Source: a virus. Taken from it: a stretch of DNA of 22,908 nt. Location of the stretch: the IMG/VR virus record IMGVR_UViG_3300020183_000490, positions 1 through 22,908 of that record; one strand, 5' to 3'. The notes under the pieces were generated by a model. The model was not told the origin of the DNA. It did no database searches and saw only the letters and a list, made by a program, of their open reading frames with translations. Shown here piece by piece: positions 1,688 to 14,941 of the stretch. Both the position numbers and the translations under genes were made by a program. Within the stretch, counting starts at the first letter, position 1. Each line of letters opens with the position of its first letter.

Positions 1688-4600
1688 TTACGGGCAATCG
1701 ATGTATTTTCCTGTGCCAATCTTGGCGTAATCTCTTAGTTCTAGTTCTACAATATCTAGACATGCTAATGATGGTAGAAACTTTGCTCCAGTACCGCCTC
1801 CACCAGTAATTAATATTTTTGGCAATTCTTTATATGATTTGGTTCTATCCAAAACTTCAACGCTAAAAACTATTCCATTTTGTATGATTGCTCTTGCAAC
1901 ATTTGGGTCTCCATTTACAAGTACAGTTGGAGGTTCTGTATAACCAGATCCTGGTCTTATCATAGTGAAAGAATCTATGATACAAGTTAAATTATCTGGA
2001 GTATCTTTCTTGTAATTAAATCCAGTCCTAGTGATTCGAATTTCTGTCACATATCCATCTGCATCTAATAATGGGAACGCACCAGCACCATATCCATTGC
2101 CGCCAATAATTACTTTTGGAGGGTTATCATAGGGACATCCTGGGTCAATGATTGGGATGCTAATAATTGCACCAGTACTATCTGTCAGTGCTTTAGCAGT
2201 TGGTTTAGTTAAACAAGGAGTGATACGTGGTGGTGGTTCAGGAGGATTAACAATTTTATCACCAATGATTACAAATCCAGCAAATGCACTTGTTCCATTG
2301 ACAAAAAATGTTGCAGATTCGTCGGTCTCAACTTTTCTATCTTCTGATATAGTGAGAAATACTTTTGCAGAATTACCAATAACTATGAATGATCCCGCCA
2401 AAGTTTTTGTAACAAAGTCGTCGGGTGTGATGTCAGTTCCGAAAATTGTGTAGGCAAATGTAGATCCATCAGCAACATTAGTTGTTGATATAGTTAGTGT
2501 TACTGTTTCCCCTTCTTTATATTCTAATTTATCAGCAGTTACACTGTAGCTCGGTACAACTGTTGTGGTGGGAGCGGTAAAAGTAGTAACAGCATTAATA
2601 GTTACTGTCGCTTCTGCTGTAGTTCCCACTATTAAAAATTGTATTACTTCTGCATCCTCAACTACTGTTGATGCCGTTGTTACAATTGGTATAGTAGCGG
2701 TGCCTCCAAATATACGGAAGGTTCCAGTCAATAGTCCGCCAACAATGTCAGATGCATCTATTGTTCCACCCAGTTGATAAGATAGTAATGTATTATCTGC
2801 AACATTATTTGTTGTTACAATAAAGTTTACTGTTTCACCACCATTTATATTAGATTTGTCTGCTGTGACAAAATATTGTGGTGTTGTATCTATCTCTTCT
2901 GTAATTAATACAGTGGCAAAAGCTGAAGTTCCATTTATAGTAAAAGTAAATACTTCTGGCAAATCTAATCCAGGGTTATCATCGTTTGATGCAATTGTTT
3001 TTGATACTGTTGCTGTGCCAGTTGGTCCAATAATTCCAGATCCCGTCAATGCATTGTCGGTAAAATCACTTCCAGTTATATTTGTTCCAGTTATTGTAAA
3101 ATTAAATGGAGTTCCATTTAATACATTGGTGGTGCTAATAGTAAACACAACTGTTTCGGTTTCAGCAACGCTAGTTTTATCTGCATTTACACTAAATGTT
3201 GGTAGCGGAGGCACTGAACTTGTTAAGGGAACAGTTGGAATAATTGGTGCCACAGTTGTTACCCCAGGTGGAATTGTACCCACTGGTACAGTGACAGGTG
3301 TTCCAGTCGGAGTGGTAGAGGGAATAGTGGTTCCAGGAGTACGTGCTCCTGGTGTAATCGCTCCTGGAGGAGGAGGAATAGGTTTTGACACAGGTGTTGT
3401 TGGTGTAGTTGATTCAGTAATTGTTCCAACGTAATCTTCAGCACTAATTATAGCAACAATTCCATCTGGTGTATAATCTTCTATAATTTTAAAATTAAAT
3501 GTTTCTGCGCCTTCAGTTAAAGCATCAGCATATGCTTGTATGTTTACACGCTTTTCTTTTTCCGCTGGACCAAATGCTAGAACTCCTTTTGCAGTAGAAA
3601 GGGTGCCAGTAGTTCCTAGAATGTCGTAATCAGTTCCTCTAATTGCAGTATCATTTGATATCTCATATATAAGGCTAGAAGCCTTATCAATATTCCCACT
3701 TCTAGTTACAATAAATTCGTTAGTTGATCCTTCAACAACAATAATATTTGATGAAGTATATCTCATTGTATTGTCTGGAATTGCAGGAGTTCCCCCAATA
3801 AATATGATCTCAGTTGGAGTTTCTACTGGATAATTTTTTGCTTCTTCACAGATACCTTCTGAAAAATCTAGGTTGCCATTTTCTATACCATCAATTAAAT
3901 CATCTAAAAAGTCATCATTTGTTTCCGAACTTGTGCAGTCAACACAAATTGTTTTTAATTTTGAACATGATTGTGGTAATCCAGAACAAGATATACCAAG
4001 TAAAGCCATGATGCCTGCTATTGCATTACCTACAATATCAATTGCTGATGCTATTGGTCCTAGTAATGCTGTAATTGAAGCTAATATTGTGTCAATTAAT
4101 TCATTTATAGCAGAAAGAATTTCGGATATGATTCCATTAACAATATTACCAACTAAGCATAAGGCGGCGTTATAAGCTTCGGATATTATTGCATTCAATA
4201 GGTCGCTTAACCATGATACTAATCTGTCAGTAATATCTTCAATACTACAACCTATCGTTTTTAAAATATTATCCAACCATTCCTGTACCTCTTTTAATCT
4301 TGCTTGTTTTGTTTTAACTGGAGGATGCCCACGCTGTCCAGTAACTTCCTCTAATAACGCCACATATGCCTCTCCAAGAACTTCTGCAGTTGCAATATCT
4401 CCAGCAGCCAAAGCTGCATCAAACGCCCCCGCAGTTGCTCCTAGCGCAACAAGAGATTCTGTTGGAATATCAATATCTGAAGGAATAATTGGAAGAACTA
4501 ATGCCTCTTTGTATAAAGCTAAATCTGTTAGTTGTTTAGCGCCCTCCTTCATTGCGTTTAAAAGTTCTCCTTTTACTCTAGCAATAGTAGATTTTACTAA

Positions 4601-5410
4601 CCTGGCAGCTTTGTGTATGTATTTTGTTTGCGCTTCTTGTACCGAAGTATTAATTGCGCCAGTTGCTTTATTCAAATAATATGATCCAACATTTCCACCA
4701 GAAGCTGATACAATACCTAAAAAATCACCTAAAATTTTTGTTAATCCAGTTTCTAAATCACTCTCTGCTCCACAAGTTGGATCTGCTATTGTGATACAAA
4801 ATTTAGCCCCAGTTGGATTTGCTTCAGAATTTTTACCAAATGCTGCAAGTATTTCTGGGGGCAATCCATCTGCTTGTGCGGCATAAGAAGAAGCGGCAGG
4901 TTCAGCACCAGTTGTATTAGATCCAGGATCTAATCCAGAAGCAGCTGAAGCACTACTTGGAGAATGTTTGGGTTGATCTGTGGCAGAATTTATTTCTGGA
5001 TCTAAGTACGTTGTAAATGATTTGCAAGTAGATCCAGGATTGGGATCCTCTTTAATTGCTTTTGTAGATCCTTGAGTATGCCCAACAGATCCAAGAATAA
5101 TTGGTTTTTGTTGGTCGTTATCAAGGTAAAATCCAATAACCCAATTACCTTGTCTTAAATTACATGTTGCACCAGTAACGCCGCCATCAGAATGTGGCGT
5201 AGTAACTGGCATCATTACACTTGCCCACGGGAGTTGATCCGTTGGTGTAACATCACAATCCTTAAGATGTGTTCCTACGATACGAACTTTATATCTACCA
5301 GAAAACTTAGGGTTTGTAGATTTTTCTGATTCTACTTGCCCTATCCACCAATTGAATCCATCGGCACCAATTTGATGTACAGGAAATAGTGAAGATAATA
5401 CAGGATCCAT
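1688..5410 (-). CDS. 5: Baseplate hub OB-fold protein (gp5-like) with Ig/Calx-beta-type repeats
   Basis: This is a 1240-aa hub protein. Residues about 18-115 match the gp5 OB-fold domain, with landmarks WWIGQVES, GRYKVRIVGTH, LPWASVMMPVT and GNWVIGFYLDNDQQKPIILG. An Ala/Leu/Ile-rich helical stretch (about 200-480) holds several Cys. A Calx-beta-like domain follows (YEISNDTAIRGTDYDILG, then ALTEGAETFNF), then a Pro/Thr-rich linker. Three tandem repeats of about 108 aa come next (TADK...GETV...STTNVADG). The C-terminal region has a 'GSGYTEPPTV' motif. T4 gp5 is 575 aa with a lysozyme domain after the OB fold; I see no lysozyme here. The needle seems to be the next gene downstream. A late-type promoter motif lies 18 bases upstream of the ATG. 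Its expected partner is the gp27-like protein encoded directly upstream. Confidence 0.8.
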   Translation of the reverse strand: MDPVLSSLFPVHQIGADGFNWWIGQVESEKSTNPKFSGRYKVRIVGTHLKDCDVTPTDQLPWASVMMPVTTPHSDGGVTGATCNLRQGNWVIGFYLDNDQQKPIILGSVGHTQGSTKAIKEDPNPGSTCKSFTTYLDPEINSATDQPKHSPSSASAASGLDPGSNTTGAEPAASSYAAQADGLPPEILAAFGKNSEANPTGAKFCITIADPTCGAESDLETGLTKILGDFLGIVSASGGNVGSYYLNKATGAINTSVQEAQTKYIHKAARLVKSTIARVKGELLNAMKEGAKQLTDLALYKEALVLPIIPSDIDIPTESLVALGATAGAFDAALAAGDIATAEVLGEAYVALLEEVTGQRGHPPVKTKQARLKEVQEWLDNILKTIGCSIEDITDRLVSWLSDLLNAIISEAYNAALCLVGNIVNGIISEILSAINELIDTILASITALLGPIASAIDIVGNAIAGIMALLGISCSGLPQSCSKLKTICVDCTSSETNDDFLDDLIDGIENGNLDFSEGICEEAKNYPVETPTEIIFIGGTPAIPDNTMRYTSSNIIVVEGSTNEFIVTRSGNIDKASSLIYEISNDTAIRGTDYDILGTTGTLSTAKGVLAFGPAEKEKRVNIQAYADALTEGAETFNFKIIEDYTPDGIVAIISAEDYVGTITESTTPTTPVSKPIPPPPGAITPGARTPGTTIPSTTPTGTPVTVPVGTIPPGVTTVAPIIPTVPLTSSVPPLPTFSVNADKTSVAETETVVFTISTTNVLNGTPFNFTITGTNITGSDFTDNALTGSGIIGPTGTATVSKTIASNDDNPGLDLPEVFTFTINGTSAFATVLITEEIDTTPQYFVTADKSNINGGETVNFIVTTNNVADNTLLSYQLGGTIDASDIVGGLLTGTFRIFGGTATIPIVTTASTVVEDAEVIQFLIVGTTAEATVTINAVTTFTAPTTTVVPSYSVTADKLEYKEGETVTLTISTTNVADGSTFAYTIFGTDITPDDFVTKTLAGSFIVIGNSAKVFLTISEDRKVETDESATFFVNGTSAFAGFVIIGDKIVNPPEPPPRITPCLTKPTAKALTDSTGAIISIPIIDPGCPYDNPPKVIIGGNGYGAGAFPLLDADGYVTEIRITRTGFNYKKDTPDNLTCIIDSFTMIRPGSGYTEPPTVLVNGDPNVARAIIQNGIVFSVEVLDRTKSYKELPKILITGGGGTGAKFLPSLACLDIVELELRDYAKIGTGKYIDCP
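2250..3215 (-). repeat. Three tandem ~108-aa beta-sandwich repeats inside the gp5-like gene
   Basis: The core phrase is FSVNADKTS, YFVTADKSN and SYSVTADKLEY in the three copies. It recurs at about 3190, 2865 and 2540, a period near 325 bases. Each copy continues with ETVxFxISTTNVxxGTxFxYxIxGTxI, a 'DF...LTGSF' stretch and a final FxxNGTSAFA-type strand. The copies differ at many positions, so this is an old protein-level duplication rather than a recent DNA repeat. The fold is probably Ig-like or Calx-beta-like. Such domains on tail proteins often bind carbohydrate or stabilise the particle surface, but the role here is unknown. Confidence 0.75.
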
Positions 5411-9424: not shown

Positions 9425-9432
9425 TATTTATC
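9425..9432 (-). promoter_or_regulatory. Late promoter motif GATAAATA before the 847-aa tail gene
   Basis: The minus strand reads GGATAAATATG here. The motif GATAAATA contains the TAA stop of the upstream 1261-aa gene (GGA TAA ATA). It lies 21 bases before the ATG of the 847-aa gene, with a strong ribosome-binding site in between. Confidence 0.5.
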
Positions 9433-12400
9433 CCACAAGTCGCTGCATAACTATGTTTGCAAGGGTACTATTTGATTCATAATAATTTTGGTGAATCTGC
9501 TGCACACCTCCTGACATTTTTGCCATTGCAACTTGTGCGGGTGGTTGTTGATTTATAATCATGATCTGCCCACCAGAATAATTCTGATCCTGTTTTAAAT
9601 AAGTAGCAATCTCAGATGTATTTTTTTCTGGATTGCTGTTTTTCTTATCTAGCATCGCACCATATCCTGTTGGTCTTCCAAACATATCGTACTGACCAGT
9701 AAATCCTTTCCCAGGTGGAAGATTCATTTGTTTTTTAACTCTTTCCAACTCAACTTGTTTCATATATGGATGTTCTTGTAAGGACGAACCAGTTCCTTTA
9801 AAGAAATTACTAAACAATCCAGCTATCTGTCGAGTTTTTTCTGCATCAAATACAAATCCATCGGTGTCTGTGCTAATCAACTCTGGTCCTTTTTCTCCAG
9901 TTAAATATGTTTTACCTTTTTTTATTGAACCACCATTTTCTCTTCCTGGTATTAAATTTGAGAGTGCATCCAATCCCAGTTGTACTGGGTTCTTCTGATC
10001 AGGTTGAACTTGAATAGAGGAGGGACCCATAACGTCCTCAACCATCTCAGCTTTTTCTTTTTCTTTATCATAAACGTTTTTGGTAACTTCTTTACCATCC
10101 ATAAAATATCTTCCACCTTCTCTTTCTGTAAAAGTTTTATCATTGATTTTAGTAGAACTAATTACTTTAGGTGCTGCTCCTGGGGGTGGTGGTGCTGTTC
10201 CATCGTAGTTTTCTATCGTTAACCCAGGAACTTTTCCAGCAGCAATATCTTTCAGTTTAAGTGAACCTTTTAATAAAGGTTCTGGATCAACATGTTGTCC
10301 ATTTACTATCACTTCAAAATGAAGATGTGCAACTGTACTAATACTATCCTTCTCAGTTAGTACCCCCAATTTTTGTCCTGCTTTAACTTTATCACCTACT
10401 TTAACAGATGGGATTACATGCAAATATCTTGTCTCCATTCCATTATCATGTTTAACATAAACACCCTTACTAACTCCACCACCAGGAAGATCAGCAACCT
10501 CAATAATAGCTGATACAGTTCCAGGTAAAGCAGCACTAAATTTCATACCAGCAGGACCAACAATATCTCTACCCAGATGTTTTCTGTCCATTTTACCAGT
10601 TCTCCCCATTCTAGGAGCACCAAACTTTGCTCCAGGGTAATCTTGCATATCACCTTCTTCCATGGGATTAACAATGTTTCCTTTTAAATCACCAGCGACA
10701 ACCGTTCCATCATATTGATCTGGTCCAGGATTTGGATTTCCGCTTTTAATCTGTTCTAATAATTGCTGGAACCTACCTCCTGGATCCAGCATCTTCAAAA
10801 GTTTTTCGGAAAACTTTTCTGGGTTTTGTTCTTCCAATAAAGACCTTTCCATTTCAGATAGTTCTTCTTCTGGGGTTTTTGTTTTTCTTTTGTTTATAAT
10901 TTCTTTTAAAGAAGGAATCGTTCCGCCAGAATCACTCTGCACCAGAATGTTTGGTTTGCCATATTTTTTAATCAACGGAGATGCCAACTGTTTAATCACG
11001 GGAGTTATTGAAGCAGCAGCAGGTCCAGATTGATTAAGGAATCCAACAGTAGCACCAAGAAGAGTTCTTGCTATTGTAGATTCTTGATTATATAACTCTT
11101 GGTTGTCTTTATTGTTTTTGTTTACAACTAATTCTGTACCATGCAATATTGCTGTACCTGGTTTTGTACTTTCGGTTCCTATTTCATATTGATCTGAACC
11201 AACACCTAAAGCTTCACTAAAAAATGCTGCGAAATGTTCATCTTTTGGAGCAGGAAGATTTGGTTCAATATTTTTTGTGTATGCAGCAACGTCAATATCA
11301 CGAAGGATATCAATTGCGGCAAACCCCCAACCAGCAACAGGTATGGCACTACCAAATGATAAGAACCCACCCTTGACATCACCCATTGCAATGCGTGCAA
11401 GTCCTTCTCCCAATCCATAGGCAGTAGAAATTCCAGGAACTAATTTAGCAGCAATTTTAACTGTTAATTTTTCTGCTCCCTCTTTACCAATTTTGCCAAC
11501 CAATGCCTTTTGAATAGCAGGACTCTTAAGTGCTCGCTGCAACACATCTTGCCCCGCTCCCCTAGTCACCCTGTCGGCGCTGCCGACAGCGCCAGCAACT
11601 GGGCGAGAAATACCACCAGCAAGGTTTCCTACTGGAGTTTTAGATAGAAATTTTGCTGCAACTTTAGGATTTGTTATTGCGGTTTTTACTACTTTTGAAC
11701 CAGGAATTTTTGCTAAAATTTTAGATCCAAATTTTTTCGCTGCTATTCTTCCCAAACGAGCAGCAGCTCTCCACTTTCTTGGCAATCTTTTCCACAACCA
11801 TCTTGCTAATCTCTTACCAAAGAATCTAATTAAGTTATTAATTAATCCGCCATTCCCTCTGGTATCTTTAAATCCTTCGGTGCCAGCAGCATCTTTTGTT
11901 TTTTCTAAATTACTTTCTGCAGTAATATTTTCTTGTTCATCTAATAAAGCTTTTTCTATTTCATTTTGTTTTCTATACTCATTTGCAAGAGCATCAATTT
12001 GATTAATCAGCATAGAATCTTGAGATTCTATACTTTGAAGCATTGATGATGTAGAGGCAAAATTTGCAGAAAGAATTTGATTCTGTTTTTGTATGGACTT
12101 ATCAATACTTTCAAAGGTTTTTTGTATTTGAGTTAAATTTTTTACAAGAAAATTATATATTTTTGCATTGGAAACATAAGAACTTGAATTTTGTTTTTCA
12201 GAACTATTATTTTTTCTTCTGTTTAAAATTTTCTGCAAATCTTCTTTAATAGAATCAGGTAAATCTTCTAATACCTCTTCATTAATTACTTCTTGCTTTG
12301 CTTCTTCTGCTTGATCTAAAGTATCTACAGCAACATTAACTTGTTCTTGTAATTCTTTTTCTTCTTCTTGTTCTAAAGCTTCATTACTAGGTTCACTTCG

Positions 12401-13213
12401 TATCTCTCCAAGTAAATTATCTAAATTCTGTCCATAAAGATCATCATTTTCTACCTCTTCCTCTTCAGGTTCTTCTGGTTCTTGATAGTACCCAGTATAA
12501 ACTGGGGGAACAGTGATTTCTCGCTGAGATGGAGTTAATTTTTTTACTAGTTTTAGAATTAGTTCAAGAATATTGGTGCGATATTTTTTAACCTCTTCAT
12601 AATCCTCGTAAACATCTAGTCCAGTAACCAAAAATAACCATTCTCTAACTGCAATTTTATCTTGACTACCTTTACTGTTACTATCTAACTTACCAGTAAA
12701 ATAAATTGCTCTATCAATATCTGATTTAAAATCCAAATCATAAAGTCCATTCTGTCCCCACATGTAACGTGGTTTAATATATTGTAATTCTGGATATAAT
12801 TTGGGATGATTTACTTTTCTTTTCAGTTTCTTTTCAAATTGTATTTCTTCTAGTCGCTTTTCAACTTCTGCTTCTTCAATTTTTTTATTAGTTTGTTCTC
12901 TAAAAGGTTTCTCAAGGAACTCTTCTACCAACCACTTTTGATATGCTTCATTATTATATGCACCACCATACTTATCATTCTCATTTATTTGAGGATACTT
13001 ACCCCATTTTTTAACGTTTTCAATTACTCTATCAGCATCAGCATCACTAAGTTTTACATAGGATGTATGTTGCTCACCACTCAACTCTGGAATTTTTCTA
13101 CCAGTTAGTTTACCTTTCAGACGCAACCAAGTTGCCTCGCCAACCCTATCAGCAGACCAATAAGGTTTTTTGGGATCTAGTATTCCTTCTGGTGCTGGTG
13201 CTGGATCTATCAT
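9428..13213 (-). CDS. Very large tail (tape-measure-like) protein with M23 peptidase domain
   Basis: This is a 1261-aa protein. The N-terminus (1-240) is soluble and charged, followed by an acidic stretch (245-330, many Glu) and a coiled coil (about 345-440). The tag GTEGFKDTRGN is at 444-454. A basic then Gly/Ala-rich amphipathic region follows (460-645), then YEIGT (676-680) and HGTELVV (691-697). The M23 metallopeptidase domain covers about 860-980, with zinc ligands His879 and Asp883 (KHLGRD) and His965 in HLHFEV, all intact. A GEKGPEL motif (1106-1112) is typical of tape-measure C-termini. M23 enzymes cut peptide cross-links of peptidoglycan. The ATG follows the stop of the gp26 frameshift frame directly (TAAATG). 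Position just after the assembly-chaperone gene is the classic place for a tape measure. Confidence 0.75.
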   Translation of the reverse strand: MIDPAPAPEGILDPKKPYWSADRVGEATWLRLKGKLTGRKIPELSGEQHTSYVKLSDADADRVIENVKKWGKYPQINENDKYGGAYNNEAYQKWLVEEFLEKPFREQTNKKIEEAEVEKRLEEIQFEKKLKRKVNHPKLYPELQYIKPRYMWGQNGLYDLDFKSDIDRAIYFTGKLDSNSKGSQDKIAVREWLFLVTGLDVYEDYEEVKKYRTNILELILKLVKKLTPSQREITVPPVYTGYYQEPEEPEEEEVENDDLYGQNLDNLLGEIRSEPSNEALEQEEEKELQEQVNVAVDTLDQAEEAKQEVINEEVLEDLPDSIKEDLQKILNRRKNNSSEKQNSSSYVSNAKIYNFLVKNLTQIQKTFESIDKSIQKQNQILSANFASTSSMLQSIESQDSMLINQIDALANEYRKQNEIEKALLDEQENITAESNLEKTKDAAGTEGFKDTRGNGGLINNLIRFFGKRLARWLWKRLPRKWRAAARLGRIAAKKFGSKILAKIPGSKVVKTAITNPKVAAKFLSKTPVGNLAGGISRPVAGAVGSADRVTRGAGQDVLQRALKSPAIQKALVGKIGKEGAEKLTVKIAAKLVPGISTAYGLGEGLARIAMGDVKGGFLSFGSAIPVAGWGFAAIDILRDIDVAAYTKNIEPNLPAPKDEHFAAFFSEALGVGSDQYEIGTESTKPGTAILHGTELVVNKNNKDNQELYNQESTIARTLLGATVGFLNQSGPAAASITPVIKQLASPLIKKYGKPNILVQSDSGGTIPSLKEIINKRKTKTPEEELSEMERSLLEEQNPEKFSEKLLKMLDPGGRFQQLLEQIKSGNPNPGPDQYDGTVVAGDLKGNIVNPMEEGDMQDYPGAKFGAPRMGRTGKMDRKHLGRDIVGPAGMKFSAALPGTVSAIIEVADLPGGGVSKGVYVKHDNGMETRYLHVIPSVKVGDKVKAGQKLGVLTEKDSISTVAHLHFEVIVNGQHVDPEPLLKGSLKLKDIAAGKVPGLTIENYDGTAPPPPGAAPKVISSTKINDKTFTEREGGRYFMDGKEVTKNVYDKEKEKAEMVEDVMGPSSIQVQPDQKNPVQLGLDALSNLIPGRENGGSIKKGKTYLTGEKGPELISTDTDGFVFDAEKTRQIAGLFSNFFKGTGSSLQEHPYMKQVELERVKKQMNLPPGKGFTGQYDMFGRPTGYGAMLDKKNSNPEKNTSEIATYLKQDQNYSGGQIMIINQQPPAQVAMAKMSGGVQQIHQNYYESNSTLANIVMQRLVG

Positions 13214-14106
13214 TTAACGTTTAGAAGCTTCTTGCTTTGCTTTTTCTTCTTGAATGTGCTGCATTAATAAGGATGTGTAAACCTCTCGTTCCCAAGGCAT
13301 CCAATTTTCAATTTCAGTCAAACTATATTTATGATACTGCATCAAAGCAAAGTTAGTTCTAAAATACCCCTCCAAACTATTTTGAAAGAGTGCTACGCGA
13401 AAAAAGATTGTAACCCTTCAATAGTATATGTTGATTCAACTCCAGTATTTGGATTAGTCACTTTAAATTCGTGCCTTAATTTTGGCATAGTTTCATAAAA
13501 ATTACTAATTTGTTCAAACTGTTTTGTAGTAAATGTTTCAATCCATGCCTTCAATTCTTTTTTCGTTACTGTAGTCATGTCCCAAACATTATCTCCTTGA
13601 TATACCTGGTCAATGCAATCAGCAACAAAATCAAATACTTCTTCTGTTTTAACATCCTTATTTAAAAATTCTGCTTCAATGAATCTATCCATACTAGGAT
13701 ACTTCATGATGATACCAATTGTATCATCAAGCATAATTTTATTTGTGTGACCTTCTGGTTTAAAAACTTCTACCGTGTTAATATCAATATCAGTTTCTAC
13801 TACTGTCTTACCATCATCAAGACAAGTAATATTCATACTAATAATTTCACCAACTGCTGCCGCTCTTATTTTTAAAAACAAATATTCTAAATCAAACGCG
13901 GGAAGTTCCTCTACTTTGATTCTAGAAAGAACACACCCCTTAATTAAATCTTTTACCGCTGCACTAATCTGTTTATCATCTTCAGATTCTAATGCTAATA
14001 GTAAAACCTTTTCTTCTTTAACTAAAAACGGTCTATACTTAACTGATTTGCCATTTGAAGGCAATTCCATCTCATAAGTTGGTACTCCAAGTTTAGGTAA
14101 TGCCAT
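13214..14106 (-). CDS. Predicted gp26 frameshift fusion (tail assembly chaperone, long form, 297 aa)
   Basis: A -1 shift at the heptamer at 13405-13399 would join 236 residues of gp26 to 61 residues read from 13399 to 13214. The extension begins RVALFQNSLEGYFRTNFALM and contains LTEIENWMPWEREVY, ending EEKAKQEASKR. The -1 frame opens only after a TGA about 18 bases before the slip site. It has no ATG with a ribosome-binding site before 13342, and its TAA touches the ATG of the 1261-aa gene. It may correspond to the small proteins annotated as gp51 in related phages, as a separate 42-aa product from the ATG at 13342. The arrangement equals that of G/GT tail chaperones in other long-tailed phages. 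The fusion is predicted, not proven. Confidence 0.6.
13393..14106 (-). CDS. 26: Baseplate hub assembly protein gp26-like
   Basis: This 237-aa protein from the ATG at 14106 begins MALPKLGVPTYEMELPSNGK, followed by VKYRPFLVKEEKVLLLA. That opening is characteristic of the T4 gp26-type baseplate assembly family in cyanophages (T4 gp26 is 208 aa). The frame can be read from a TTG at 14121, but the ATG fits the family start. It has mixed alpha/beta character and no membrane segments. In T4, gp26 acts in hub assembly with gp51 and gp28. Here it precedes the two huge tail proteins, as tail assembly chaperones precede tape measures. A late motif sits 26 bases upstream. The last codons contain a slippery heptamer, so the protein probably also exists in an extended form. 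Confidence 0.8.
   Translation of the reverse strand: MALPKLGVPTYEMELPSNGKSVKYRPFLVKEEKVLLLALESEDDKQISAAVKDLIKGCVLSRIKVEELPAFDLEYLFLKIRAAAVGEIISMNITCLDDGKTVVETDIDINTVEVFKPEGHTNKIMLDDTIGIIMKYPSMDRFIEAEFLNKDVKTEEVFDFVADCIDQVYQGDNVWDMTTVTKKELKAWIETFTTKQFEQISNFYETMPKLRHEFKVTNPNTGVESTYTIEGLQSFFA
13399..13405 (-). promoter_or_regulatory. Predicted programmed -1 ribosomal frameshift site (T TTT TTC)
   Basis: In the gp26 frame the minus strand reads TCT TTT TTC GCG TAG. The heptamer T TTT TTC fits the canonical X XXY YYZ pattern, letting both tRNAs re-pair after a one-base back-slip. A purine-rich, anti-SD-complementary element GAAGGG (13414-13419) lies 8 bases upstream of the heptamer, in the range known to stimulate -1 shifting in dnaX. 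Downstream, AAAATA and TATTTT could pair around an 11-base loop, but that stem is weak. Confidence 0.6.
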
Positions 14107-14131: not shown

Positions 14132-14139
14132 TATTTATC
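14132..14139 (-). promoter_or_regulatory. Late promoter motif GATAAATA before gp26
   Basis: The minus strand reads GGATAAATAAT. The motif includes the TAA stop of the gp54 gene (GGA TAA ATA) and ends 25 bases before the gp26 ATG. It has the same geometry as the motifs at 5428 and 9425. Confidence 0.5.
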
Positions 14140-14941
14140 CAGTAAACGAAACAGGTATATTGTTGAAAATAACAGATTGTTTGGCATAATAAAAGTTTGC
14201 GCTCACCTTAGTAATTTGAGATGCCCCATAAGATAGCGGTACTGCGTCAATAGAATATGGAAAACAATCTTCTAAAATATATGTTGCAGATGCCCTTCCG
14301 TTCGGTGCATTTGCCGAGCGTTCTGTTTTTGTAATCTGAACATTACATTGATAAGATGATGGAAATTTTAATCTCACATTTCTACTTGGATTTCTAGCCG
14401 CTTCTGACTTAAGATTATCTAATGTTTTACCATTAACAAACTTAGGTAGATTGCTATATGAACTATCTGGATCTGGAGTAAACCCAGGTCTATCCGCAGA
14501 AAAAATATAACTGTGCCATACAGTTAAAAATTTCAATGGTATCATATTAGAATCACACATCCAAGATAATGTAAAGTCACTATACAATCTTGTGTGAGGA
14601 TAATATACTGTACCTTCTCCCAAAAGCCTGCCGTTAATTTGTCCAGTCGCAGCTTGAACATTGGGTAATTGAGCCTCATCACATAATACTTTTAATAAGT
14701 ATCCTCCATTAGAAGGAGTCCCAGTATCTGGATCTATTCCCAATCCTCGTTTTCCTGTATCTTTAAAAAACTTTGTAAGTTCGGACGTTCCTGCTCCAAA
14801 TTTAAATTCTACATCATATCCATTTGACATGGACATTCCACCTTGAGCAGCTATTCCCGATATAAAATTAGAAATTGAACTGGCTATTGGCACTCTAAAT
14901 ATAGATGAAGATGTATCTTTATTTATGGCATATTCTGGCAT
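14135..14941 (-). CDS. 54: Baseplate tail-tube initiator, gp54-like
   Basis: This 268-aa protein carries the tail-tube (gp19-type) fold signature: 'LCDEAQLPNVQAATGQINGR', a YYPHTRLYSDF strand and MIPLKFLTVWHSYIF. T4 gp54 and gp48 are both related to the tube protein gp19 and form the platform on which tube polymerisation starts. gp48 is separately recognisable on the plus strand, so this is best read as gp54 (T4 gp54 is 320 aa). The ATG at 14941 lies inside the first codons of gp4 on the opposite strand, so the two divergent genes overlap by 17 bases at their 5' ends. The minus-strand bases CTATAAAT at 14998-14991, within gp4, are a possible late promoter about 50 bases upstream. Confidence 0.75.
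   Translation of the reverse strand: MPEYAINKDTSSSIFRVPIASSISNFISGIAAQGGMSMSNGYDVEFKFGAGTSELTKFFKDTGKRGLGIDPDTGTPSNGGYLLKVLCDEAQLPNVQAATGQINGRLLGEGTVYYPHTRLYSDFTLSWMCDSNMIPLKFLTVWHSYIFSADRPGFTPDPDSSYSNLPKFVNGKTLDNLKSEAARNPSRNVRLKFPSSYQCNVQITKTERSANAPNGRASATYILEDCFPYSIDAVPLSYGASQITKVSANFYYAKQSVIFNNIPVSFTG

Follow-up and report, generated by a model that had tools for sequence, protein, structure and literature searches.

Does translation of the gp26 gene of this virus end at the gp26 stop codon, or do some ribosomes pass into the overlapping -1 frame and produce a second, longer tail assembly chaperone (TAC)? A preliminary description of the locus had proposed a -1 programmed frameshift that fuses gp26 to an extension, as in known chaperone pairs. 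We addressed the question in the whole stretch of DNA analysed (the window, 22,908 nucleotides) and in its relatives. We conclude that the gp26 locus very probably encodes a two-form TAC whose long form arises by -1 programmed frameshifting on T_TTT_TTC. The proposal is supported by conservation of the site, the absence of a start for the downstream frame, candidate stimulator elements, the fused gp51 of T4, and a gp26 model that resembles the HK97 chaperone.

Organization of the gp26 Locus

The genes around the junction are as follows.

14135..14941, minus strand: tail tube protein, directly upstream of gp26 (PF23849 Phage_TTP_2, E 3e-48; phrog_45)
13393..14106, minus strand: gp26, probable short form of the TAC (TAC-N), 237 aa (PF12322, phrog_150, HK97 TAC-like model)
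9428..13213, minus strand: 1261-aa protein in the tape-measure position, with an M23 peptidase domain inside (PF01551, E 6e-17)

The sense codons of gp26 occupy 14106..13396, and its TAG stop lies at 13395-13393. The protein matched the profiles PF12322 (T4_baseplate, E 2e-72) and phrog_150 (E 3e-78). The gene thus sits between the tail tube gene and the gene for the 1261-aa protein, which is long, contains no cysteine, diverges fast, and gave weak matches to the tape-measure profiles phrog_1538 (E 4e-4) and phrog_8892 (E 0.01). In phages Cr30 and phiM12, nearby genes downstream of the junction are annotated as tape measure.

The tape-measure slot of cyanophages (window 9428-13213; loci L083, L085, and L101) carries enzyme-like domains that differ among relatives: an M23 peptidase in the window, an ADP-ribosyltransferase-like match in S-PM2, and annotations as 2OG-Fe(II) oxygenase in ACG-2014j and endolysin in Syn30. 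Cysteine was absent from 16 of the 17 slot proteins compared and almost absent from the remaining one. Elsewhere in the window, positions 1688-5410 encode a 1240-aa protein with an N-terminal gp5 OB domain and a mid-protein Calx-beta domain, which may be an enlarged baseplate hub protein.

An AlphaFold2 model of gp26 had a mean pLDDT of 87.5. The top solved matches to residues 1-94 of the model were YqbN (3klu, Z 7.0), the HK97 TAC (2ob9, Z 6.8), and rbstp2171 (3fgx, Z 6.0), with the next at 4.1 and all Z values below 8. YqbN and rbstp2171 are XkdN-like phage chaperones. Foldseek paired the model with HK97 TAC 2ob9 at a probability of 0.92 and an E value of 0.5. The modelled fold therefore resembles that of the HK97 TAC, a likeness that at Z < 8 is suggestive. 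The resemblance in fold is shown here, as are the sequence and homology of gp26; chaperone action is what we infer. A profile search of gp26 against the sequences of solved structures returned nothing meaningful, and an NCBIfam search returned nothing above the cut-off.

The -1 Frame and Its C-terminal Domain

13214..13417, minus strand: -1 open frame, encoding from the slip site a 61-aa C-terminal domain (TAC-C, "gp51"; phrog_634, E 1.9e-27)

Reading in the -1 frame meets no stop between 13417, immediately after a TGA, and 13217. The TAA that closes this frame (13216-13214) abuts the ATG at 13213 of the 1261-aa gene, a contact noted in the preliminary description; the coordinates given there for the junction were right. 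The 61-residue extension that it predicted corresponds to 61 aa after Phe-Phe, for a fusion of 236 + 61 = 297 aa. The phrog_634 profile matched by this extension is that of the "baseplate hub assembly catalyst" (gp51), and a second match of the extension is to the C-terminal end of phrog_150. A tblastn search with the C-domain found matches in 551 phage records, mainly of cyanophages. Annotation of the domain varies: it is a separate gp51 in P-SSM2, S-PM2, and phiM12, a truncated ORF from an internal start in S-CAM3 and Astolliot, and unannotated in Syn30 and ACG-2014j.

Conservation was assessed in 51 distinct loci, comprising IMG/VR loci and reference phages from which near-duplicates had been taken out. 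All 51 have the C-domain in the -1 frame of gp26, and this frame is uninterrupted through the domain in every one. In all aligned relatives, homology of the C-domain starts exactly at the slip site, where a conserved Met is absent. Substitutions after the slip site follow the codon periodicity of the -1 frame (622/307/1458), and by this measure the frame is under codon-position constraint.

A Conserved Slippery Heptamer at the End of gp26

13399..13405, minus strand: slippery heptamer T_TTT_TTC in the gp26 frame; in phase, kept in 48/51 distinct relatives

The 3' end of gp26 reads GAA GGG TTA CAA TCT TTT TTC GCG TAG on the minus strand. TTTTTTC at 13405-13399 stands in X_XXY_YYZ phase before the 0-frame stop. 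An in-frame T TTT TTC had been predicted among the last sense codons of gp26 and was found there, but the spacing to the TAG is 3 bases (the single codon GCG) and not the 4 originally counted. A heptamer alone is weak evidence in an AT-rich window whose genes contain 62 in-frame X_XXY_YYZ heptamers in 6179 codons, and the case therefore rests on comparison with relatives.

The junction could be read in 79 IMG/VR relatives (42-100% identical), every one of which had TTTTTT[C/A] at the same place and gp51 in the -1 frame. Across the 51 distinct loci the junctions were T_TTT_TTC (42), T_TTT_TTT (4), T_TTT_TTA (2), and non-canonical (3), so that 48 conserve a slippery site in phase, with C after the T run in 42 of these. 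Judged from the alignments, conservation at this level puts the site far beyond chance. The slip signal is present in phages of Caulobacter, Vibrio, Sinorhizobium, Pseudomonas, Citrobacter, Stenotrophomonas, and Aeromonas. The codon preceding TTT is AGT, AAT, GAT, TCT, or GCT; the amino acid is S, N, D, or A, and the last base is always T. With loci taken as independent, the constant T has a log10 P of -11 under background codon use, although the relatives share kinship and the P values for the heptamer, the SD-like element, and the GAG bias (below) overstate the strength. Within the clade of the window (12 sequences), the three slip codons show no variation at their third positions, unlike the codons around them.

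Locus L049 was considered as an exception to the conserved junction and rejected: its stop falls earlier in gp26 and the junction is intact. The internal TAA responsible (L049:2461) may be a genuine nonsense mutation or may stem from an error in sequencing. Three remote relatives, Klebsiella phage Madison, Escherichia phage FEC14 (Ackermannviridae), and Vibrio phage D493, have the C-domain in the -1 frame and an incomplete heptamer (ATTTTC or CTTTTC). Their junctions (L094, L098, and L099) read GAG_ATT_TTC_ATT or TCA_CTT_TTC_AAG, and the C-domain is without annotation in Madison and FEC14.

Start Signals in the Downstream Frame

The GenBank annotation implies a different origin for the C-domain, as a small independent gp51 whose translation begins close to the gp26 stop through reinitiation or coupling. 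In P-SSM2 and S-PM2 an ATG follows 5 nt from the point where the gp26 stop codon begins, and gp51 is annotated from there. The -1 frame of 26 of the 51 relatives has some ATG, GTG, or TTG between -25 and +20 relative to the stop, and reinitiation may therefore act in some of them. The position of the start is nevertheless variable. The window had been described as having no well-placed start for the downstream frame, and we located only a TTG 20 nt and an ATG 53 nt past the gp26 stop, neither with an SD. A scan of all -1-frame ATG, GTG, and TTG codons near the junction in the 51 relatives found no conserved start with an SD, a start plus SD near the stop being present in two. The pattern that the preliminary description had set against its own proposal, loss of the slip site combined with a conserved independent start and ribosome-binding site, is thus not that of the relatives, in which the heptamer is kept and start plus SD is rare. 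A separate gp51 would also leave the invariant heptamer unexplained; the homology continues without interruption as far as the slip site, which precedes any such Met, and in T4 both domains occupy one chain (below). We consider a separately translated gp51 very unlikely.

Candidate Stimulators of the Slip

13414..13419, minus strand: GAAGGG, SD-like element, probable ribosomal stimulator, 8 nt upstream of the heptamer
13366..13391, minus strand: predicted 11-bp hairpin, probable downstream stimulator, starting 7 nt after the heptamer

The GAAGGG noted earlier 8 bases before the slip site was located at 13419-13414. In 45 of the 48 loci, the 20 nt preceding the T run contain an SD-like match, which in 43 of these stands at a distance of 8-10 nt, against a background of 22%. 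At this element the Glu codon is GAG rather than GAA in a ratio of 29:7, compared with 305:888 elsewhere (Fisher p 2e-11, a value likewise inflated by kinship). As a sequence pattern, the element is consistent across distant hosts.

Folding of a 91-nt segment did not give a significant hairpin in the window (z -0.94). Shorter segments gave z -1.9 in the window and a mean of about -2 across relatives, and support for the hairpin comes from these values and from covariation, not from the 91-nt fold. At 9 of the 11 pairs none of the 11 clade members departs from canonical pairing; one of these pairs shows a two-sided compensatory change, and several one-sided changes were also seen. The hairpin belongs to the clade of the window; other clades have different hairpins or none. 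Both the SD-like element and the hairpin are probable stimulators of the slip.

These elements also bear on whether the polymerase, and not the ribosome, slips on the T run to give the long form. A homopolymer of 6-7 T is indeed conserved, as transcriptional slippage would have it, but bacterial RNA polymerase usually needs runs longer than 6 to slip. The run is moreover closed by C in 42 of 48 loci, and both the SD-like element and the hairpin suggest slippage by ribosomes. Transcriptional slippage is accordingly less likely still than a separate gp51.

Natural Controls in T4 and Aeh1

In T4 and Aeromonas phage 50AhydR13PP, gp26 and gp51 are separate genes. T4 gp26 corresponds to the short form, and T4 gp51 joins a PF12322 gp26-like domain and, after it, the C-domain in a single frame; PF12322 is found in the gp26 of the window and in both T4 proteins, and the gp51 C-domain matches phrog_634. 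T4 gp26 ends in GAG TTC TTT GAG, which keeps Phe-Phe in a non-slippery form, and its -1 frame lacks the C-domain and runs into gene 25. Aeh1 was reported to lack gp51 (PMC3037559). Its gp26 has T_TTT_TTC and an unannotated C-domain in the -1 frame (L103:2789-2956), which would be why gp51 looked missing. Across the genomes examined, gp26 thus has a slip site when no other gene encodes the long form and lacks one when another gene does.

The same comparison bears on a further reading, in which conservation of Phe-Phe alone produces the heptamer and the -1 frame is what is left, in decay, of an ancestral fusion. In favour of this reading, gp26 proteins almost always keep Phe-Phe, but synonymous choices are frozen precisely at the slip bases, T4 with its separate long gene encodes the same residues as TTC TTT, and the -1 frame is constrained by codon position and open through the C-domain in 51/51. 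Of the alternatives weighed here it is the least probable, and we give it almost no credence.

Cyanophage gp51 had appeared to be about 20% of the T4 protein (PMC3037559), as expected if it is the C-domain of a frameshifted chaperone. Cyanophage gp26 and the small "gp51" would then be misannotated in public records, gp51 being the tail of a frameshifted chaperone and not a gene of its own. T4 gp51 is needed for assembly and absent from the final particle, and was described in 2010 as essential with function unknown (PMC3004832); a frameshifted chaperone pair supports a tail-chaperone role for it.

Proposed Mechanism

We infer the slip, its efficiency, and the roles of the stimulators from the observed sequence, frame, and conservation. 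Under programmed frameshifting, the majority of ribosomes would halt at the gp26 TAG and release the 237-aa short form (TAC-N). A minority would pause with 16S rRNA paired to the internal SD-like sequence and the downstream hairpin ahead, and would move back one base on T_TTT_TTC, both Phe tRNAs re-pairing with UUU. Continuing in the -1 frame, they would make the 297-aa long form (TAC-NC) with its 61-aa "gp51" domain. By analogy with lambda gpG/gpGT, both forms may coat the putative tape-measure protein made from the next gene, and the C-domain may recruit tail tube subunits.

More tentatively, and with rather less than even confidence, we suggest that the shift signal has diversified in the gp26/gp51 superfamily. 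In cyanophages T_TTT_TTC would be joined by an internal SD and by a hairpin particular to the clade. Phages like the Ackermannviridae and some of those of Vibrio, in which the -1 C-domain follows no canonical heptamer, would rely on a single-tRNA slip or another mechanism, and T4 may have escaped through gene duplication and fusion.

Comparison with Known Systems

Frameshifting is reportedly conserved in several T4-like groups, according to the abstract of the study that described their chaperones, with T4 using genes 26 and 51. Chaperone genes of T4-like phages were identified by Vladimirov, Gautam, and Davidson (Virology 2022, 566:9-15, doi 10.1016/j.virol.2021.11.003), as relayed by PMC10885494 and PMC12846349. 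The latter names them as the source for poly-T slippery sequences within TAC-N genes of T4-like phages, and the PRFect paper (PMC10885494) takes from them that the short and long forms are separate genes in some T4-like phages. As far as these accounts go, the T4-like TACs resemble the window in their gp26-type TAC-N, gp51-type C-domain, and poly-T slip, and we can name no difference in kind. The preliminary description regarded the gp26/gp51 shift as undescribed for T4-like cyanophages; by the same accounts, T4-like phages in general were already covered in 2022, and a frameshifted TAC in such phages is known in kind. Our literature search found no experiment demonstrating the gp26 shift. What the present sequence comparison appears to add is breadth in cyanophage contigs and the candidate SD-like and hairpin elements.

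E. coli dnaX has an SD about 10 nt upstream of an A_AAA_AAG site and a hairpin downstream, and its frameshift product is shortened. The window shares with this general picture of dnaX the internal SD upstream and the hairpin downstream, but differs in its heptamer and in having a product that would be extended. The slip site of lambda, G_GGA_AAG, also differs from T_TTT_TTC, and we liken the window to lambda gpG/gpGT by arrangement and not by sequence homology. The arrangement in common is a -1 shift, in the window a predicted one, near the end of the short-chaperone gene, ahead of the tape-measure gene, which in the window is a putative one (Xu, Hendrix, Duda 2004; PMC5009743). Phage Adele (Vandenendeviridae / Andersonviridae) belongs to other phage families and has the motif GTTTTT, but its TAC locus resembles that of the window in an uninterrupted -1 frame before the gene in the tape-measure position, a conserved poly-T motif, and a misannotated small downstream ORF (PMC12846349).
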